From Rufibacter sp. XAAS-G3-1 (GTDB taxonomy: Bacteria; Bacteroidota; Bacteroidia; Cytophagales; Hymenobacteraceae), in NCBI RefSeq assembly GCF_013623775.1, contig NZ_JABFAM010000013.1:62001-126000 (forward strand): 64,000 nt of DNA. The letters are read 5' to 3'. This document shows positions 31,096-55,799 of the stretch, piece by piece; positions within the stretch are counted from its first letter, which is position 1, and the number at the start of each line of letters is the position of its first letter. Under the pieces are notes generated by a model, which searched no databases, had not been told where the DNA came from, and saw nothing but the letters and a program-made list of their open reading frames with translations. The position numbers were made by a program, and so were the translations under genes.

Positions 31096-31222
31096 GCTTG
31101 TTCGGGAGTTCTACTCCCGAACAAGCTTGCCGGGGAGTTCTCCTCCGCCGGGAACCGCAGGCAAAAGAAGGGGAGTGGAACTCCCCGGCAGTAAGCTTCC
31201 GGAGTGGAACTCCGGAAGAGCG
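31096..31222. repeat. Compound four-hairpin repeat, copy 2
   Basis: Same order and orientation as 1077-1199, with the outer stem extended to GCTTGTTCGGGAGT/ACTCCCGAACAAGC. It directly abuts the GCGAGACTC element. Confidence 0.85.
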
Positions 31223-47814: not shown

Positions 47815-47822
47815 AGGTAATG

Positions 47823-47894
47823 TGGCCGCGCCAGGAATCGAACCTGGATCGAGAGCTTCGGAAACTCCAATACTATCCGTTGTACTACGCGGCC
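47823..47894 (-). tRNA. tRNA-Arg (anticodon CCG)
   Basis: Seventy-two bases folding as a cloverleaf. Acceptor GGCCGCG/CGCGGCC with discriminator A, D stem GTAC/GTAT, anticodon stem GGAGT/GCTCT (with end wobbles) around loop TTCCGAA (anticodon CCG), and T arm CCAGG-TTCGATT-CCTGG. CCA is not fully encoded (CA follows). It reads CGG codons. Confidence 0.93.
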
Positions 47895-48071
47895 CCGTAT
47901 TGCGAGGGCAAATGTAGGGAATGGCAGGCAAGAATAAAAGCCGCCTCTGGCGTTTTTTGGCTGTTTCCACAAAAAGGGGAGGAAAGGAGGGAAGGAAGGC
48001 AAGGCAACTCTAACATTTTCGGCTTGAAACAGTTTAGGAATAAGACACCAGTACATTACAAACAAAGAACT

Positions 48072-48491
48072 ATGAAAAGAGTATACACCGCGGAAGTTAC
48101 CGCCACCGGAGGCCGCAGCGGCCAGGTAAAATCATCAGACGGAATCATTGACATGCCCGTGCGCCTGCCCGAGGGCTTGGGCGGCAAAGGCGGGGCTACC
48201 AACCCAGAGCAGTTGTTTGCGGCGGGTTATGCGGCCTGTTTCCAGAGCGCCCTGCAACTGGTGGCCAGCAAGCAGCAGATCAGACTAGACGAGAATTCGA
48301 CGGTAACCGCTCATGTGGGGTTGGATATGCTGGACAACGGCGGCTACGGGCTGTCTGTGCAGCTAGATGTGAAAGTGGACGGCGTAGAGAAAGCCAAAGC
48401 CGAGGAATTGGTGAAACAGGCGCACGAAGTTTGCCCATACTCCGTAGGAACCCGCGGCAACATAGACGTACAACTAAACGTGCTGGACTAG
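48072..48491 (+). CDS. Organic hydroperoxide resistance protein (Ohr/OsmC family)
   Basis: A 139-residue cytoplasmic thiol peroxidase that reduces organic hydroperoxides. The two redox cysteines are present: AACFQSALQLVA (about Cys58) and VCPYSVGTRGN (about Cys122). The Ohr-type N-terminus (RVYTAEVTATGGRSGQVKSSDG) and the GATNPEQLFAAGYA block agree with the Ohr subgroup. The frame stays open upstream through the tRNA, but the ATG at 48072 is the family start. Confidence 0.95.
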   Translation: MKRVYTAEVTATGGRSGQVKSSDGIIDMPVRLPEGLGGKGGATNPEQLFAAGYAACFQSALQLVASKQQIRLDENSTVTAHVGLDMLDNGGYGLSVQLDVKVDGVEKAKAEELVKQAHEVCPYSVGTRGNIDVQLNVLD

Positions 48492-49345: not shown

Positions 49346-50158
49346 TTATCGGCCGAAGGCCCAGAGTAGGAAATCTGGCATCATTCTGCCCCAGGTAGAC
49401 ACGTCATGCCGACCGCCAATGAGTTCTACGTACTTCACGTCTTCACTTTTTTGGTAGCCTTTTTTGTACAGCTCCAACATTAGGCTGGTGGTGTCATCAA
49501 TAGAGTCAATGATGCCGTTCTGGTTGCGGTCAGATTTTTCGTCCTGGGTGCCGGCTTCAAACCAGAATTTCAGGTTGGGTTTCTCTGGAGTGGAACTCAC
49601 CAGTTTATGGGTGATGCGGTGTTTGTCTGGGAATTCTTTTTTGGCTTCTTTTTTCCGCCACCAGAACGCCCCAGAAAAGGCACCTACCTTAGAGAAAACG
49701 TCTGCATGGCGCCAGGCGATGTCAAAGGCAGAAACAGCCCCCAATGAGAAGCCAATAATAGCGGTGCTGGCGAACTCCTGAAGGCTGGTTTTCTCGTAAA
49801 TGGCGGGCAAAAGCTCCTGTACCACAAACTGCCGGTAGTTTTCGGCCTCAGCGCCTCTCCCTTTGTAATCTGATACGCCAGAAATCCCGAATTCCTTGGT
49901 GCGCTCTCCCGCTTTTATGCCAACGGTTAAGATGGGGGTGATCTGTTTCTTTTTATAGAGAGGCTGCAGAATCTGGTCGTACTGCATGGTGGCAAGATCT
50001 TGTCCGTCATTGACCAGAAGCAAATGCAGAGGCTCTACCACGCCGTCCATGTCGGGTACGTACAGCGTGCATTCCACGTCCCGGTTCAAAAATTCTGATG
50101 TTACCGTCAACTCCTCTACCCTGATACTCACATCAGACACTATATATTCTAAAAACAT
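49346..50158 (-). CDS. Esterase D-like alpha/beta hydrolase
   Basis: A 270-residue cytoplasmic hydrolase of the enterochelin-esterase/esterase D group. Opening strand LLLVNDGQDL, nucleophile elbow IGFSLGAVSAFD (Ser in GFSLG), acid in FEAGTQDEKSD, and His in GGRHDVSTW. A loop DRNQNGIIDSIDD has the spacing of an EF-hand-like calcium site, a known insertion in these esterases. It is divergent from the amidoligase cluster, 150 bases away, and probably shares its control region. It could cleave or load the cluster's product; that is inferred. Confidence 0.9.
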   Translation of the reverse strand: MFLEYIVSDVSIRVEELTVTSEFLNRDVECTLYVPDMDGVVEPLHLLLVNDGQDLATMQYDQILQPLYKKKQITPILTVGIKAGERTKEFGISGVSDYKGRGAEAENYRQFVVQELLPAIYEKTSLQEFASTAIIGFSLGAVSAFDIAWRHADVFSKVGAFSGAFWWRKKEAKKEFPDKHRITHKLVSSTPEKPNLKFWFEAGTQDEKSDRNQNGIIDSIDDTTSLMLELYKKGYQKSEDVKYVELIGGRHDVSTWGRMMPDFLLWAFGR

Positions 50159-50308
50159 TATATTAAAAAAGTATTTGTTACAAACTAAAATAAGGGCACT
50201 TGCGATAAATACTTTCCAAATCTCGGAATATTTTTAACAACAGTACCCTTTTTGGAATATCCTATTGGAAACTTACAACGTAACCATACAGAATTAATAC
50301 TGAGGCCC

Positions 50309-51013
50309 ATGATAGAACAGTATCACAAATGGTATTCGCAGCAATTAAGCCAGGACATGGAAATGCTCGTCTTCGGTGACAGAGGCTATCCGGTTATTCT
50401 CTTCCCCACGTCCATGGGCCGGTATCATGAAAACAAAGACTTCAAGCTCATTGAGTCGGCCGCCTGGTTTGTCAATGAAGGGCTGGTGAAAATCTATTGC
50501 ATTGACTCCGTTGACAAGCAAAGCTGGTACAACAAAGGAATACACCCTGCAGACCGGGTCAGAACCCACATGGCCTATGATCAAATGTTGTACCAAGAAC
50601 TGGCGCCCTGGGCCATGCATGAGACGGAAAAGTCCAAGGTATGTGTGGCGGGCTGTAGTTTTGGCGGCTACCATGCGGCCAACTTCGCCTTCAAACACCC
50701 AGACCGGGTAAGTCATTTATATAGCATGAGCGGCGCCTTTGACATACGGGGGCAACTGGACGGGTTCTTCAATGATGACGCTTACTATAACAACCCCATA
50801 GATTTTGTGCGCCATGCCACAGACCCCGCTTTATGGCAATTGAAGATTATTCTGGGCACTTCTGACCAGGATATCTGCAAAGAATCTAATCTAGTACTCT
50901 CCGCAATATTGAACGGAAAAGGCATTTCCCATTGGCTTGACGTCCGGCCCAACGCAGTCCATGACTGGTCTGTCTGGCGCGAGATGTTTCCGCATTACTT
51001 ATCCCAGATCTAA
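50309..51013 (+). CDS. Alpha/beta hydrolase (esterase-fold), first gene of the amidoligase cluster
   Basis: A 234-residue cytoplasmic hydrolase. VILFPTSMGRYHENKDF opens the fold, the nucleophile elbow is CVAGCSFGGYHA (Ser in GCSFG), the acid is likely in LGTSDQD and the His in NAVHDWSVW. This family is typically seen next to ATP-grasp and carboxylate-amine ligases. The ATG at 50309 fits the family start (MIEQYHKWYSQQL). It starts the five-gene plus-strand run; the next gene is 17 bases on. It may hydrolyse an ester or thioester intermediate or release the product. Confidence 0.9.
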   Translation: MIEQYHKWYSQQLSQDMEMLVFGDRGYPVILFPTSMGRYHENKDFKLIESAAWFVNEGLVKIYCIDSVDKQSWYNKGIHPADRVRTHMAYDQMLYQELAPWAMHETEKSKVCVAGCSFGGYHAANFAFKHPDRVSHLYSMSGAFDIRGQLDGFFNDDAYYNNPIDFVRHATDPALWQLKIILGTSDQDICKESNLVLSAILNGKGISHWLDVRPNAVHDWSVWREMFPHYLSQI

Positions 51014-51030
51014 CGCAAACTCTAAGCACT

Positions 51031-52074
51031 ATGAAAAAAATAGGAATCTTATTCGGGCAGGAAAAAACTTTTCCGCAAGCCTTTGTTGACCGCATCAACC
51101 AAAAGGGAGGAGGAGACATTACGGCAGAATTCGTGCACATTGACAAGGTGATCCAGTCAGAAGGGCCTGGGTATGATGTGATTGTAGACCGTATCTCACA
51201 GAGTGTGCCTTTTTACCGGGCCATGCTCAAGAACGCCGCCATGGCGGGTACGGCTGTTATCAACAACCCTTTCTGGTGGAGCGCAGATGAGAAGTTCTTC
51301 AACAACTCCCTGGCCGTTAGATTGGGTGTTCCGGTGCCTAAAACCGTTTTGCTGCCTTCCTGCCAAATGCCAGATGACACCACCGGCGACTCTTTCCGGA
51401 ACCTGAGTTTCCCACTGGACTGGGACGGCATCTTCAATTACGTGGGCTTCCCGGCATACATGAAACCGTTTGACGGTGGTGGCTGGCGTGATGTCTATAA
51501 ACTACATGACGCCCAGGATTTCTTTGATAAGTATAACCAGACCGGCCAATTGGTCATGATGTTGCAGGAAGAAATCATTTTCGATGATTATTTCCGGTGC
51601 TACTGCATTGGCGGCGAACACGTGCGCATCATGCAATATGAGCCCCGCAACCCGCACCATCTGCGTTATGAGCACGGCAAAGCCCCGGCTTCCAAAGAAA
51701 TTCTAGATCAGGTACGGGACTACGTTATCAAACTGAACCAGTACCTGGGGTATGACTTCAATACGGTGGAGTTTGCCATCAGAGACGGCGTTCCGTATGC
51801 CATTGATTTCTGCAACCCGGCGCCAGACGCAGAATTGACCAGCGTAGGCGAAGAGAACTTTGAGTGGGTGGTGGAGACCGCGGCCAACTATGCCATTGAA
51901 CGCGCCAAAAACCATCGGCCAGAGGCAGACAATCTTACCTGGGGCAAGTTTGTGTCTACGGGCGCAGCCAAGGCCTCTTTATTGGGTGGCCAGGCAGGAG
52001 CGGCAACGCCTATGGCCACTGAAGAGGCATCTGCCAAGCCAGCCAGAAAACCAAGAGCGAAAAAGCTAAGCTAG
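51031..52074 (+). CDS. ATP-grasp ligase (RimK-like), amidoligase cluster
   Basis: A 347-residue ATP-grasp enzyme that would couple a carboxylate to an amine through an acyl-phosphate. Pre-ATP-grasp strand MKKIGILFGQEKTFP, ATP-binding lid region FPAYMKPFDGGGWRDVYKLH, and the metal-binding block NTVEFAIRDGVPYAIDFCNPAPD are all seen. A Lys/Arg-rich tail (PARKPRAKKLS) follows an Ala-rich linker; this tail is unusual and could be an interaction arm. It starts 17 bases after the esterase gene and is followed by the GCS2 ligase in 25 bases. Substrates unknown. Confidence 0.92.
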   Translation: MKKIGILFGQEKTFPQAFVDRINQKGGGDITAEFVHIDKVIQSEGPGYDVIVDRISQSVPFYRAMLKNAAMAGTAVINNPFWWSADEKFFNNSLAVRLGVPVPKTVLLPSCQMPDDTTGDSFRNLSFPLDWDGIFNYVGFPAYMKPFDGGGWRDVYKLHDAQDFFDKYNQTGQLVMMLQEEIIFDDYFRCYCIGGEHVRIMQYEPRNPHHLRYEHGKAPASKEILDQVRDYVIKLNQYLGYDFNTVEFAIRDGVPYAIDFCNPAPDAELTSVGEENFEWVVETAANYAIERAKNHRPEADNLTWGKFVSTGAAKASLLGGQAGAATPMATEEASAKPARKPRAKKLS

Positions 52075-52099
52075 GTTCTATCTATAAATCTCGTGCACT

Positions 52100-53203
52100 A
52101 TGAATGAATTCACATTGGGAGTAGAAGAGGAGTTCATGGTGGTAGACCCTGTAACCAGGGAACTTACCTCTCATGATCAGAAGATTGTTGATGCTGCTCA
52201 AAAAATACACGAAGATCAGGTGAAAGCAGAGATGCACCAGGCGGTAGTGGAAGTGGGCACAAACATTTGCCGGAACACAGATGAGGCTCGGGCCGAGGTA
52301 ACCAAACTGCGGAAAACCGTAGCTACCCTGGCCGGAGAATTGGGGTTGCGTATTGGCGCGGCCGGTACGCACCCTTTCTCGCATTGGCAACATCAGTTAA
52401 TCACCGACCACCCGCGCTACTTTGACATTGTCAATGAACTGCAGGAAGCAGCCCGCTCTAACCTTATTTTCGGGTTGCACGTGCACGTGGGGTTTCAAAG
52501 CAGAGAGATGGCCATGCACATTGCCAATGGCGTTCGGTACTTTTTGCCGCACGTGTACGCCTTGTCCACCAATTCGCCGTTCTGGGAAGGAAGAAACACT
52601 GGTTATAAATCTTTTAGGACAAAAGTATTTGATAAATTTCCAAGAACCGGCATTCCAGATTACTTCAATAGCATAGAGGAATATGACAGCTATATCAAAC
52701 TGCTGGTGAAAACCAACTGCATTGACAACGCCAAGAAGATCTGGTGGGACGTGCGTGTACATCCCTTCTTTGATACCATAGAGTTCCGGATCTGCGACTG
52801 CCCTATGCTGGTGAATGAGACCATGGCGTTTACGGCCATTTTTCAGGCAATCTGCGCCAAACTGTACAAACTGAGAATGCAGAACCTCAAGTTTATCACC
52901 TACAGCCGGGCGCTCATCAATGAAAACAAGTGGCGTGCCGCCCGTTATGGCATTGACGGTAAGATGATTGACTTCGGCCGAGAAGCGGAAGTGAATACCC
53001 GTTCCCTGGTGCTGGAATTGCTGGACTTTATTGACGATGTGGTAGATGAATTAGGGAGCCGCGATGAAATCAACTACGTGCACCAGATTCTGGAACACGG
53101 CACCGGCGCCGACAGGCAATTGGAAGTATATAACAGAAACCAAAGTTTCTCAGATGTAGTAGATTACATTACGTCGCAAACTTTACAAGGCGTTGACGTA
53201 TAA
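52100..53203 (+). CDS. Carboxylate-amine ligase (GCS2/YbdK family)
   Basis: A 367-residue member of the glutamate-cysteine ligase 2 family (glutamine-synthetase-like fold). The N-terminal GVEEEFMVVDP has the metal-binding Glu triplet. Further conserved blocks are AEMHQAVVEVGT, HVHVGF (about 130) and WWDVRVHPFFDTIEFRICD. YbdK-type enzymes have weak gamma-glutamylcysteine activity at most, and their true substrates in such clusters are not known. It would make a second amide bond beside the ATP-grasp enzymes. Confidence 0.95.
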   Translation: MNEFTLGVEEEFMVVDPVTRELTSHDQKIVDAAQKIHEDQVKAEMHQAVVEVGTNICRNTDEARAEVTKLRKTVATLAGELGLRIGAAGTHPFSHWQHQLITDHPRYFDIVNELQEAARSNLIFGLHVHVGFQSREMAMHIANGVRYFLPHVYALSTNSPFWEGRNTGYKSFRTKVFDKFPRTGIPDYFNSIEEYDSYIKLLVKTNCIDNAKKIWWDVRVHPFFDTIEFRICDCPMLVNETMAFTAIFQAICAKLYKLRMQNLKFITYSRALINENKWRAARYGIDGKMIDFGREAEVNTRSLVLELLDFIDDVVDELGSRDEINYVHQILEHGTGADRQLEVYNRNQSFSDVVDYITSQTLQGVDV

Positions 53204-53246
53204 GGGCTCAGAAAGCAATATCTGCTGACAAGCTCTGTTATTGTAC

Positions 53247-53277
53247 TTTCAAATGAAAAGTGCAATTCGTATCTTTG
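53247..53277 (+). promoter_or_regulatory. Candidate internal promoter before the amidotransferase gene
   Basis: TTTC (53247-53250), 19 bases, then TATCTTTG (53270-53277), a match to TAnnTTTG. It lies in the only sizeable gap (97 bases) of the cluster and implies a start site just before ATG 53301. Confidence 0.5.
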
Positions 53278-53300
53278 GGTTTTACGTTTACTCCACCACA

Positions 53301-54128
53301 ATGTCTATAAAAGTTGCGATCCTTGACATGTATGATGGTCATCCCAACCAGGGAATGAAATGCATCAAGGACATATTAAAGAAATTCAGAAAGAATCATT
53401 TCGTTGATTTAACCTATGACGCCTTTGATGTAAGAGGTAAAAGCGAACTGCCAGACACCAGTTACGATATCTACATCTCTACCGGTGGCCCTGGAAGCCC
53501 TACTGAAAGCGAAGGCTCTGAATGGGAAAACAACTATTTCGCCTTCATAGATCAACTGGAAGCCATCAACAATGATCCCAGCCGGTCAGATAAAAAACAC
53601 GGTTTCTTTATTTGCCATTCTTTTCAGTTGATGTGCAGAAAGTACCAGTTAGGGAAAGTAGTCAAAAGAAGATCTACCTCTTACGGCATTTTCCCCATCT
53701 ACAAAACCGAGTATTGGGATCAGGAAGACATCTTCAGCGGGTCAGATGAGACCTTTTACGCCGTAGATTCCCGTGACTGGCAGGTGATTGAAGCAGATGA
53801 GGAACAGTTCAAAAAAATAGGTGCTAAACTGCTGGCCATTGAGAAAGAGCGTAACCATGTGAATCTGGAGCGGTGCATGATGGCCATCCGGTTTAATGAG
53901 TATTTCCTTGGTACCCAGTTCCACCCCGAGGCAGACCCCATTGGCTTGAGAACCTTCCTGTTGGAAGAAGAGAACAAGCAACGGATCATCAATGCCCACG
54001 GCGAGAAGAAGTACAATGATATGATTGAGTTACTGGAGAACCCGGTAGAGTTGGAGCTAACCCGAAAAGAAGTTATCCCCACGTTTCTCCAGAATGCCAT
54101 TAAAAGTATGCAGACCCAGGAGGTATGA
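53301..54128 (+). CDS. Class I glutamine amidotransferase
   Basis: A 275-residue class I GATase-type protein. The opening strand is MSIKVAILDMYDGHPNQGMK. Oxyanion strand YISTGGPGSPTE, nucleophile Cys105 in FFICHSFQLMC, and catalytic His208/Glu210 in GTQFHPEADP form the full triad. It would supply ammonia from glutamine, or cleave a gamma-glutamyl amide. The ATG at 53301 is chosen because a promoter lies just upstream. It overlaps the last gene by 4 bases (ATGA), so the two products are probably made in equal amounts and may form a complex. Confidence 0.92.
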   Translation: MSIKVAILDMYDGHPNQGMKCIKDILKKFRKNHFVDLTYDAFDVRGKSELPDTSYDIYISTGGPGSPTESEGSEWENNYFAFIDQLEAINNDPSRSDKKHGFFICHSFQLMCRKYQLGKVVKRRSTSYGIFPIYKTEYWDQEDIFSGSDETFYAVDSRDWQVIEADEEQFKKIGAKLLAIEKERNHVNLERCMMAIRFNEYFLGTQFHPEADPIGLRTFLLEEENKQRIINAHGEKKYNDMIELLENPVELELTRKEVIPTFLQNAIKSMQTQEV

Positions 54129-55312
54129 TCAAGGAAATCAGGGAGAAGTTTAATGCCGCCTTTACGCAGGAAGCGTACCAGAATCTGTTGGCGGAACTAG
54201 ATAGGCAACTGGGTATCCCACTAGGGTTCAGAGTGGCCGAAACTCCTGTTTTCATTGACCAGGCTTTCAAGCAGAAGCTGATGGCAGCCGGTGATGATCT
54301 GGTCAATACTATCCTCAGAAAGGACTTCAAGCAGATTACAGAAAAATCTATCCCGCAAGAATGGAAGACCGCCCATGAAAATGAGCGGCCTCACTTTCTT
54401 ACCTTTGATTTTGCCGTCTGCCGTGATGCCAATGGGGAATTAACTCCCAAGCTAATCGAACTGCAAGGCTTTCCGTCTTTGTATGGTTTTCAGGCCGAAT
54501 TGGCGAAACAATACCAAAACCATTTCCCGGTCATTGCTAACTTAACGCCTTATTTCCAACAGCAGGGAGAACAGCAGTACCTAGATCTGCTCCGCCAAAC
54601 CGTGGTGGGGCCGCACCAACCCCAAGAGGTAATCTTGCTTGATATTCAGGCAAAAGAGCAGAAAACAGCCGTTGACTTCTTTGTCACAGCCCGTTTTCTG
54701 GGGATTGAGATTGTGGCCCTAGAAGACCTCAAACAAGTAGAGAACCGGTTTTTCTACACCAAAGACGGCGTGGAGTACCCTGTCAAGAAGATCTACAACC
54801 GCTTAATTTTTGACGAGGTAGAAAACAGGGAGGAGGCCTTCAAGAACGTTCCAGACCTGTTGACTACTGATCAGATTGAATGGGTAGGGCACCCCAACTG
54901 GTTTTACCGCATCAGCAAGTACACCATGCCTTTTCTGGAGAGTGAGTTCGTCCCGCACACCACTTTTCTGTCTGAGGTGAAAACCTTGCCCACCAATCTC
55001 TCTGACTACGTTCTGAAACCGCTTTTCTCTTTTGCGGGCCAAGGCGTGATCATAGATGTTTCTGAATCTGACCTCCATTCTGTAAAAGACCCCGAAAACT
55101 GGGTGCTACAGGAAAAAGTCGCCTATGAACCCGTGATCCAAGCCCCAGACGGTTTGGTGAAATGCGAGATCAGGTTGATGTACCTGTGGCCTGACGGCGA
55201 TGAAAAACCCACGCTAGCCATTAACTTAGCCAGGCTAAGCCGCGGCAAGATGATTGGCGTTCGCTACAACAGCAATTTTGACTGGGTGGGTGGAACCGTT
55301 TGTCTTTTCTAG
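54125..55312 (+). CDS. Second ATP-grasp ligase, amidoligase cluster
   Basis: A 395-residue ATP-grasp-type protein, only distantly similar to the first. Visible blocks are RPHFLTFDFAVCRDANGELT, PKLIELQGFPSLYGFQ (acidic metal-type motif), a lid SDYVLKPLFSFAGQGVIIDV and the C-terminal CEIRLMYLWPDGDEKPTLAI. The last residues (SNFDWVGGTVCLF) are hydrophobic. The 4-base overlap with the amidotransferase suggests that ammonia or an amine is delivered to this enzyme. Substrate unknown. It ends the operon; no terminator is obvious within 100 bases. Confidence 0.88.
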   Translation: MIKEIREKFNAAFTQEAYQNLLAELDRQLGIPLGFRVAETPVFIDQAFKQKLMAAGDDLVNTILRKDFKQITEKSIPQEWKTAHENERPHFLTFDFAVCRDANGELTPKLIELQGFPSLYGFQAELAKQYQNHFPVIANLTPYFQQQGEQQYLDLLRQTVVGPHQPQEVILLDIQAKEQKTAVDFFVTARFLGIEIVALEDLKQVENRFFYTKDGVEYPVKKIYNRLIFDEVENREEAFKNVPDLLTTDQIEWVGHPNWFYRISKYTMPFLESEFVPHTTFLSEVKTLPTNLSDYVLKPLFSFAGQGVIIDVSESDLHSVKDPENWVLQEKVAYEPVIQAPDGLVKCEIRLMYLWPDGDEKPTLAINLARLSRGKMIGVRYNSNFDWVGGTVCLF

Positions 55313-55676: not shown

Positions 55677-55799
55677 ACTCTTCCGGAGTTCCACTCCGGA
55701 AGCAACCTGCCGGGGAGTTCCACTCCCTTTCTTTTGCCGTGGCTCCCGGCGGAGTGGAACTCCGCCGCAGACAGGTTCGGGAGTAGAACTCCCGAACAG
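55677..55799 (-). repeat. Compound four-hairpin repeat, copy 3 (inverted)
   Basis: The reverse order of the hairpins at 1077-1199; the GTTCGGGAGT/ACTCCCGAAC stem is now at the right end. Confidence 0.85.

Follow-up and report, generated by a model that had tools for sequence, protein, structure and literature searches.

In a stretch of 64,000 nucleotides from Rufibacter sp. XAAS-G3-1 (contig NZ_JABFAM010000013.1, positions 62,001 to 126,000; hereafter the window), we found a set of six genes that is inherited as one unit in many Bacteroidota and whose shared product is very probably a single small molecule. The set encodes two predicted ATP-grasp ligases (AG1 and AG2), a carboxylate-amine ligase (GCS2), a glutamine-amidotransferase-like protein (GAT) and two esterases, of which E1 heads the five plus-strand genes and E0 diverges from it (Table 1). 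An earlier note on this DNA had described the plus-strand genes, with gaps of 17, 25, 97 and -4 bases, as one functional unit of ligases and hydrolases from recognised families. The open reading frames (ORFs) and coordinates agree with this, and the ORFs are not chance ones, since full-length relatives of every one of them exist in tens of same-order genomes. The description of a five-gene set was right for these five, but left out E0, although it named esterases in the plural; the unit comprises six genes, and the divergent esterase belongs to it.

The co-inheritance searches were run with each protein or profile in turn against the same 118 genomes of the window's order. AG2 was found in 40 genomes. 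AG1 gave 42 matches, and after exclusion of two at 18-19 bits the remainder are the identical 40. GAT gave 45 matches, of which three weak ones were likewise excluded, and the 42 left consist of 39 of the 40 AG2-positive genomes (all but G027) and three others. All genomes counted for the other three proteins fall inside the AG2-positive 40, namely 32 for GCS2 (leaving out a second weak match in one genome), 37 for E1 at no less than 275 bits and 34 for E0, which was searched at an E-value of 1e-30 only. The E1 cut-off was chosen after a gap had been seen in the scores: the next best match inside the 40 has 211 bits and the best outside them 203 bits, and at E 0.001 58 of the 118 genomes match. 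Two genomes (G034 and G090) have E1 matches of 182-185 bits, and a third match (G110) is cut by a contig end. The Fisher values for co-occurrence of AG1, AG2, GAT, GCS2 and E1 are extreme; these p-values, like the one for M29 exclusion given below, ignore relatedness among the genomes.

The set is also retained where its genes are scattered. In G003, AG1, GAT, AG2 and E1 are situated on contigs C1, C9, C11 and C8, respectively, E0 shares C1 with AG1 at a distance of about 90 kb, and other genomes of the same family (f4) have unlinked sets too. Physical linkage therefore does not explain the co-retention, and it is this near all-or-none inheritance, even when scattered, which makes a shared product very probable. 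Within the window's own family, all six genes are missing from two genomes of one genus at the thresholds used and present in the six remaining genomes of that genus.

Gene order was analyzed in the best-scoring 80 of 551 confirmed stretches, a sample which for that reason leans towards close relatives. The complete order E0 (minus strand), E1, AG1, GCS2, GAT, AG2 occurs in 37 of these 80 genome-contig loci and in 12 of 39 same-order relatives, and in 72 of the 80 E0 is found upstream of AG1 in divergent orientation. Only E0, AG1 and GCS2 were present in the fetched DNA of 21 loci, some loci stopping at contig ends. The closest named relative among these best 80 of 551 is Rufibacter latericius (locus L097; GCS2 97%, AG1 84%). 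Gene order across relatives was a point on which the earlier note had staked its proposal beforehand, and it is kept in Pontibacter, Pedobacter and Mucilaginibacter. The flanking genes differ among lineages. Clustering of the proteins neighboring the loci gave no seventh gene recurring across lineages, and the commonest extra clusters (in 21-23 loci) look like lineage-specific flanks.

A wider survey of 335 Bacteroidota genomes with AG1, AG2 and GAT gave strong matches in 116, 101 and 75 genomes, respectively, weak matches having been excluded in two genomes for AG1, one for AG2 (a fragment) and eight for GAT. AG1 and AG2 occur together in 97 genomes, and AG1 is present in 74 of the 75 GAT genomes. 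AG1 without AG2 was seen in 19 genomes, with GAT in 15 and without it in four, and 41 of the 101 AG2-positive genomes have no GAT. With AG1 in 116 of 335 genomes, many Bacteroidota may share a conserved metabolite or modification.

Some of the proteins were readily assigned. GCS2 scored far above the cut-offs of PF04107 (208.3 vs 21 bits), TIGR02050 (301.3 vs 176.4) and the equivalog NF010039 (538 vs 371), and it matches YbdK in PDB (1r8g, 1.1e-63). GAT, whose scan took in 15 further residues upstream (53256-54125), matched PF00117 at 32.2 bits (cut-off 22.8); the full Cys105/His208/Glu210 triad pointed out in the earlier note is the same in all 24 proteins aligned, and the end of the gene overlaps the start of AG2 by 4 bases. 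The two esterases are homologous (27% over 161 residues, E 1e-7), with the nucleophile motif G-C-S-F-G in E1 and G-F-S-L-G (Ser138), together with His251, in E0. Against the S-formylglutathione hydrolase family TIGR02821, E0 reached only 20.7 bits, well under the cut-off of 281.7. E0 residues ~208-222 form a conserved EF-hand-like loop, DRNxNGIIDSIDD, which we presume to be calcium-related, and no evident signal peptide was seen in this protein by eye.

The ATP-grasp identity of AG1 and AG2 rests on AlphaFold models and Foldseek comparison. AG1 had no Pfam match at E 0.01, and its NCBIfam matches to RimK (TIGR00768, 35.9 vs 143.4 bits) and LysX (23.9 bits) were both under the cut-off; the model (mean predicted local distance difference test score, pLDDT, 75.7) is grouped by Foldseek with Ddl, LysX/ArgX, RimK and PsnB. 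Its C-terminal tail (51970-52071) is rich in Lys, Ala and Pro, varies in length and is missing in some relatives. For AG2, no glutathionylspermidine synthetase (GspS) match was found in Pfam or NCBIfam at E 0.01, and a PDB profile search gave YgiC at no better than E 0.036. Its model (mean pLDDT 89.7) has 20 Foldseek matches in PDB at E 0.001 or better, with template modelling (TM) scores by query length of 0.45-0.63. These are GspS-like proteins, YgiC, YjfC, glutathione and homoglutathione synthetases, GSS effectors and Cp1B, and include 3n6x, a putative glutathionylspermidine synthase (2.0e-14), 7uk6 (1.4e-12), 1m0w (1.6e-12), 2io7 (9.7e-12) and 7uk8 (2.4e-11). The two ligases had been called unrelated, in keeping with a profile comparison in which no sequence relation between them appeared. 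In G238 (L217:4637-7240), AG2 is in frame and continuous with a sodium:solute symporter (PF00474, 125.9 bits) lying upstream; in G379 of the same genus (L218:4273-6950), the symporter frame is broken, and its final portion likewise shares the AG2 frame. This continuity may hint that the AG2 substrate is imported.

Two members of the set have exchangeable counterparts. The first is a 339-residue Peptidase_M29 protein (PF02073; 63.3 and 50.7 bits vs a cut-off of 27 in the two scanned), which in eight loci (L115, L137, L208 and L221-L225) stands in the GAT slot, with GCS2 on one side and AG2 on the other, and lies upstream of AG2 in G027, the sole AG2-positive, GAT-negative genome of the order. 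It was searched for in 80 selected genomes, i.e. all 41 AG2-positive, GAT-negative genomes of the phylum set plus G027, all four with AG1 and neither AG2 nor GAT, nine of the 15 with GAT and no AG2, 15 of the 60 with AG2 and GAT, and ten without the gene set. Fifteen of the 80 match at E 0.001, and the close form was defined as at least 527 bits, a cut set after the scores had been seen. This form occurs in nine of the 42 AG2-positive, GAT-negative genomes vs none of the 15 with GAT and AG2; likewise, it was found in none of the nine with GAT and no AG2, the four with AG1 only and the ten without the set. In eight of the nine genomes, about 1 kb at most separates it from AG2. Weak matches (35-102 bits) occur in six further genomes. 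In each of the families f9 and f53, members with GAT occur beside a single member that has M29 and no GAT.

The other counterpart is a circularly permuted (CP) ATP-grasp protein of ~450-480 residues. It was found in all ten genomes inspected of the 15 in the phylum with AG1 and GAT and no AG2, directly after AG1 and in the place of GCS2 and AG2 in each of the ten loci, which are of other families. GAT comes next in nine of them and E1 is present in eight; PF14403 was above its cut-off in one of the three CP proteins scanned. The exchangeable parts show which steps may be chemically equivalent, narrowing the possible role of GAT. Its replacement by M29 speaks for a GAT that splits an amide or peptide bond, instead of one that feeds ammonia to a ligase.

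We put at somewhat less than an even chance that the six genes form one pathway which builds, and partly dismantles, a short non-ribosomal peptide or amide conjugate. Each substrate, bond, cell location and place in the order of steps is one that we infer. GCS2, being of the YbdK type, would form an amide between an amino acid and an amine, with the gamma-carboxyl of glutamate as the likeliest site, and AG1, of the RimK/LysX type, would attach a further residue to a carboxylate. AG2 would then add an amine cap to a carboxylate, the reaction that GspS and Escherichia coli YgiC and YjfC carry out with spermidine. The amidase half would be the Cys-His-Glu triad of GAT, or in some lineages the M29 metallopeptidase, breaking an amide or peptide bond either in the final compound or in an intermediate, and E0 and E1 could cleave ester or thioester derivatives. 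The synthetase/amidase model follows from the finding of a GspS-fold ligase beside a cysteine hydrolase that is swappable for a metallopeptidase, a logic like that of E. coli GspSA. A more specific version is possible and rather doubtful, i.e. a modular synthetase/amidase cycle for a conserved small amide conjugate in a large share of Bacteroidota, in which the capping ligase is either GspS-fold or CP-ATP-grasp, the amidase either of the glutamine amidotransferase (GATase) fold or M29, and the whole a second pathway beside bacillithiol.

A number of observations weigh against this pathway. AG2 has a sub-threshold match to PF14403 (CP_ATPgrasp_2; 16.8 bits vs a cut-off of 32), and its Foldseek matches have root-mean-square deviations of 5.7-12 Å. 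The set is not always whole: four genomes of the phylum have AG2 without AG1 (one of these, G266, with GAT and the other three without it), four have AG1 with neither AG2 nor GAT, and the three additional GAT-positive genomes of the order set (G024, G040 and G113) have neither ligase. GCS2 is missing from all eight positive f4 genomes, nor was it seen in the ten inspected CP-ATP-grasp stretches, a result for those stretches only, so the gamma-glutamyl step would be optional or replaced. The match between AG2 and its CP counterpart is local and marginal (E 0.059), and their equivalence consequently rests on position and fold class. The exclusion of close M29 forms from GAT genomes (nine of 42 vs none of 24) is modestly significant (one-sided p 0.012); four GAT-positive genomes have weak M29 matches (35-52 bits), and in G316 the close form lies far from AG2. 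Finally, 33 of the 42 AG2-positive, GAT-negative genomes have no close M29 form either, which means that the hydrolytic step would be dispensable or done otherwise.

The earlier note had GAT supplying ammonia from glutamine. As a rival to the hydrolytic role this makes GAT a true glutaminase feeding AG2 or AG1, the product being a primary-amide-capped small peptide, e.g. a compatible solute analogous to N-acetylglutaminylglutamine amide. The invariant triad and the overlap with AG2 would fit, as would the presence of AG2 downstream in 45 of the 47 GAT-bearing genome-contig loci and the position of GAT behind the CP ligase in nine of ten. A metallopeptidase in the GAT slot, however, would not give glutamine ammonia, two in five or so of the AG2-positive phylum genomes (41 of 101) have no GAT to provide it, and the six proteins include no match to a GNAT or asparagine-synthase family. 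With the close M29 form absent from the 24 GAT-positive genomes tested, the ammonia claim is so far unsupported; hydrolysis fits better, short of proof, and we regard the glutaminase role as rather unlikely. It is decidedly unlikely that the ligases instead tag a protein terminus and the hydrolases take the tag off, in the way that RimK modifies the terminus of ribosomal protein S6. The sub-threshold RimK and LysX scores of AG1 and its place beside RimK, LysX/ArgX, PsnB and Ddl in Foldseek speak for such a tag, but no carrier or precursor gene recurred among the clustered neighbors of at least 70 residues, so that a shorter precursor may exist, and to our knowledge the GCS2 and GspS-fold enzymes characterised so far act on small molecules or peptides.

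A third alternative, that the cluster makes the main low-molecular-weight thiol as a glutathione analogue, with esterases resembling S-formylglutathione hydrolase, would draw on GCS2, on the glutathione-synthetase folds and on the weak sub-threshold match of E0. It is largely rejected by the distribution of BshC, which exceeds its family cut-off in 102 of the 118 order genomes (39 of 40 cluster-positive and 63 of 78 cluster-negative ones) and also in the genome from which the window comes. Bacillithiol is thus probably the main thiol whether or not the cluster is present, and we consider a glutathione analogue very improbable. That the genes are neighbors by chance or general operon drift, with no shared function, agrees with the varying flanks, but is refuted by the finding that AG1 and AG2 share exactly the same 40 of 118 genomes, those with unlinked genes included, and we give it practically no credence.

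GspSA is among the closest known systems. E. coli GspSA and its paralogues YgiC and YjfC share the fold of AG2 by Foldseek (2io7, 7uk8 and 7uk6), with only 13-14% identity over the alignments, and GspSA pairs its synthetase with amide hydrolysis (PDB title of 2io7), as proposed here for AG2 and GAT. In GspSA the amidase domain is fused N-terminally. The partner of AG2, unlike this domain, is a separate GATase-fold protein or an M29 peptidase, and the six-gene unit adds two further ligases and two esterases. YgiC and YjfC are termed peptidylpolyamine synthetases in PMC12568646, where it is also described how the stand-alone ligases of the fungal E-64 pathway, the ATP-grasp Cp1B and the amide bond synthetase Cp1D, form successive amide bonds with no non-ribosomal peptide synthetase. 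Cp1B (9cjn) matches AG2 in Foldseek (2.9e-10); unlike in the E-64 pathway, oxygenase and ANL-type ligase families gave no match to any of the six proteins. The operon for N-acetylglutaminylglutamine amide shares the logic of ligase, amidation and aminopeptidase and differs by its families, which include an asparagine synthase and a GNAT-family protein (PMC8070244).

No known pathway explaining all members, which would have undone the earlier note's proposal, was found in the open-licence literature, a search outside which the survey of Iyer et al. from 2009 (Mol Biosyst 5:1636) lies, nor was a description of this gene set found there. That survey reportedly deals with predicted amidoligase clusters, and the six-gene unit is probably of this general kind. 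Neither the enzyme families nor the concept of amidoligase clusters is new; what is defined here is a widespread co-inherited six-gene pathway with exchangeable modules. Its near all-or-none inheritance, its small size and its occurrence in cultured genera (Pedobacter, Mucilaginibacter and Pontibacter) make it testable.

An anti-phage defence role was considered and rejected, as each of the six proteins matched 0 PADLOC-DB families at E 0.01. As to a plasmid origin, AG1 and AG2 had no plasmid match at E 1e-5. Plasmid-borne relatives were found for E1 (15 records, 29-37% identity) and for the CP-ATP-grasp protein (13 records, 21-27%). On a plasmid of Peptoclostridium acidaminophilum (L211:5779-7744), an E1 relative (37%) lies directly beside an ATP-grasp gene, so such a neighborhood exists outside Bacteroidota too, in Bacillota; two other loci with E1 relatives (L212 and L213) had no nearby match to the AG1, AG2 or CP profiles. 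The Selenomonas ruminantium plasmid pSRC2 (L214:2957-7299) has a glutamate-cysteine ligase family gene, a multidrug and toxic compound extrusion (MATE) exporter and a CP-ATP-grasp gene in a row, possibly a related mini-pathway with an exporter.

Table 1. Features of the six-gene unit, with nucleotide positions in the window.
Feature	Position	Strand	Basis
E0, PF00756 esterase, 270 aa	49346-50158	minus	PF00756, 91.7 bits vs cut-off 22
Divergent intergenic region E0/E1, 150 bp	50159-50308		putative promoters both ways
E1, alpha/beta hydrolase (PF00756), 234 aa	50309-51013	plus	38.9 bits vs cut-off 22
AG1, predicted ATP-grasp ligase, RimK/LysX/Ddl fold, 347 aa	51031-52074	plus	AlphaFold model and Foldseek
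GCS2, YbdK-type carboxylate-amine ligase, 367 aa	52100-53203	plus	PF04107, NF010039
GAT, class I glutamine-amidotransferase-like, 275 aa	53301-54128	plus	PF00117, Cys105/His208/Glu210
AG2, predicted ATP-grasp ligase, glutathionylspermidine synthetase/YgiC/glutathione synthetase fold, 395 aa	54125-55312	plus	AlphaFold model and Foldseek

The intergenic region between E0 and E1 presumably holds both putative promoters. Scans for consensus promoters and terminators gave matches at chance level, and the pattern TAnnTTTG was not found in this region. Upstream of the cluster (47820-48491) is an Ohr family peroxiredoxin gene (TIGR03561, 181.6 bits), which has the same place in the Rufibacter locus L097 and was not seen in the other 79 genome-contig loci, some of which stop at contig ends. 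Lastly, the window harbors 12 matches to the palindrome GGAGTTCCACTCC with at most one mismatch, vs 0.15 expected. One stands alone at 49587, and the rest are grouped at 1082-1190, 31105-31213 and 55685-55792 (four, three and four matches, respectively), the last group just after AG2. Within the groups the palindromes form pairs with a spacing of 29 bases, the two pairs facing each other, and we take these groups to resemble repetitive extragenic palindromic (REP) or bacterial interspersed mosaic element (BIME) types.

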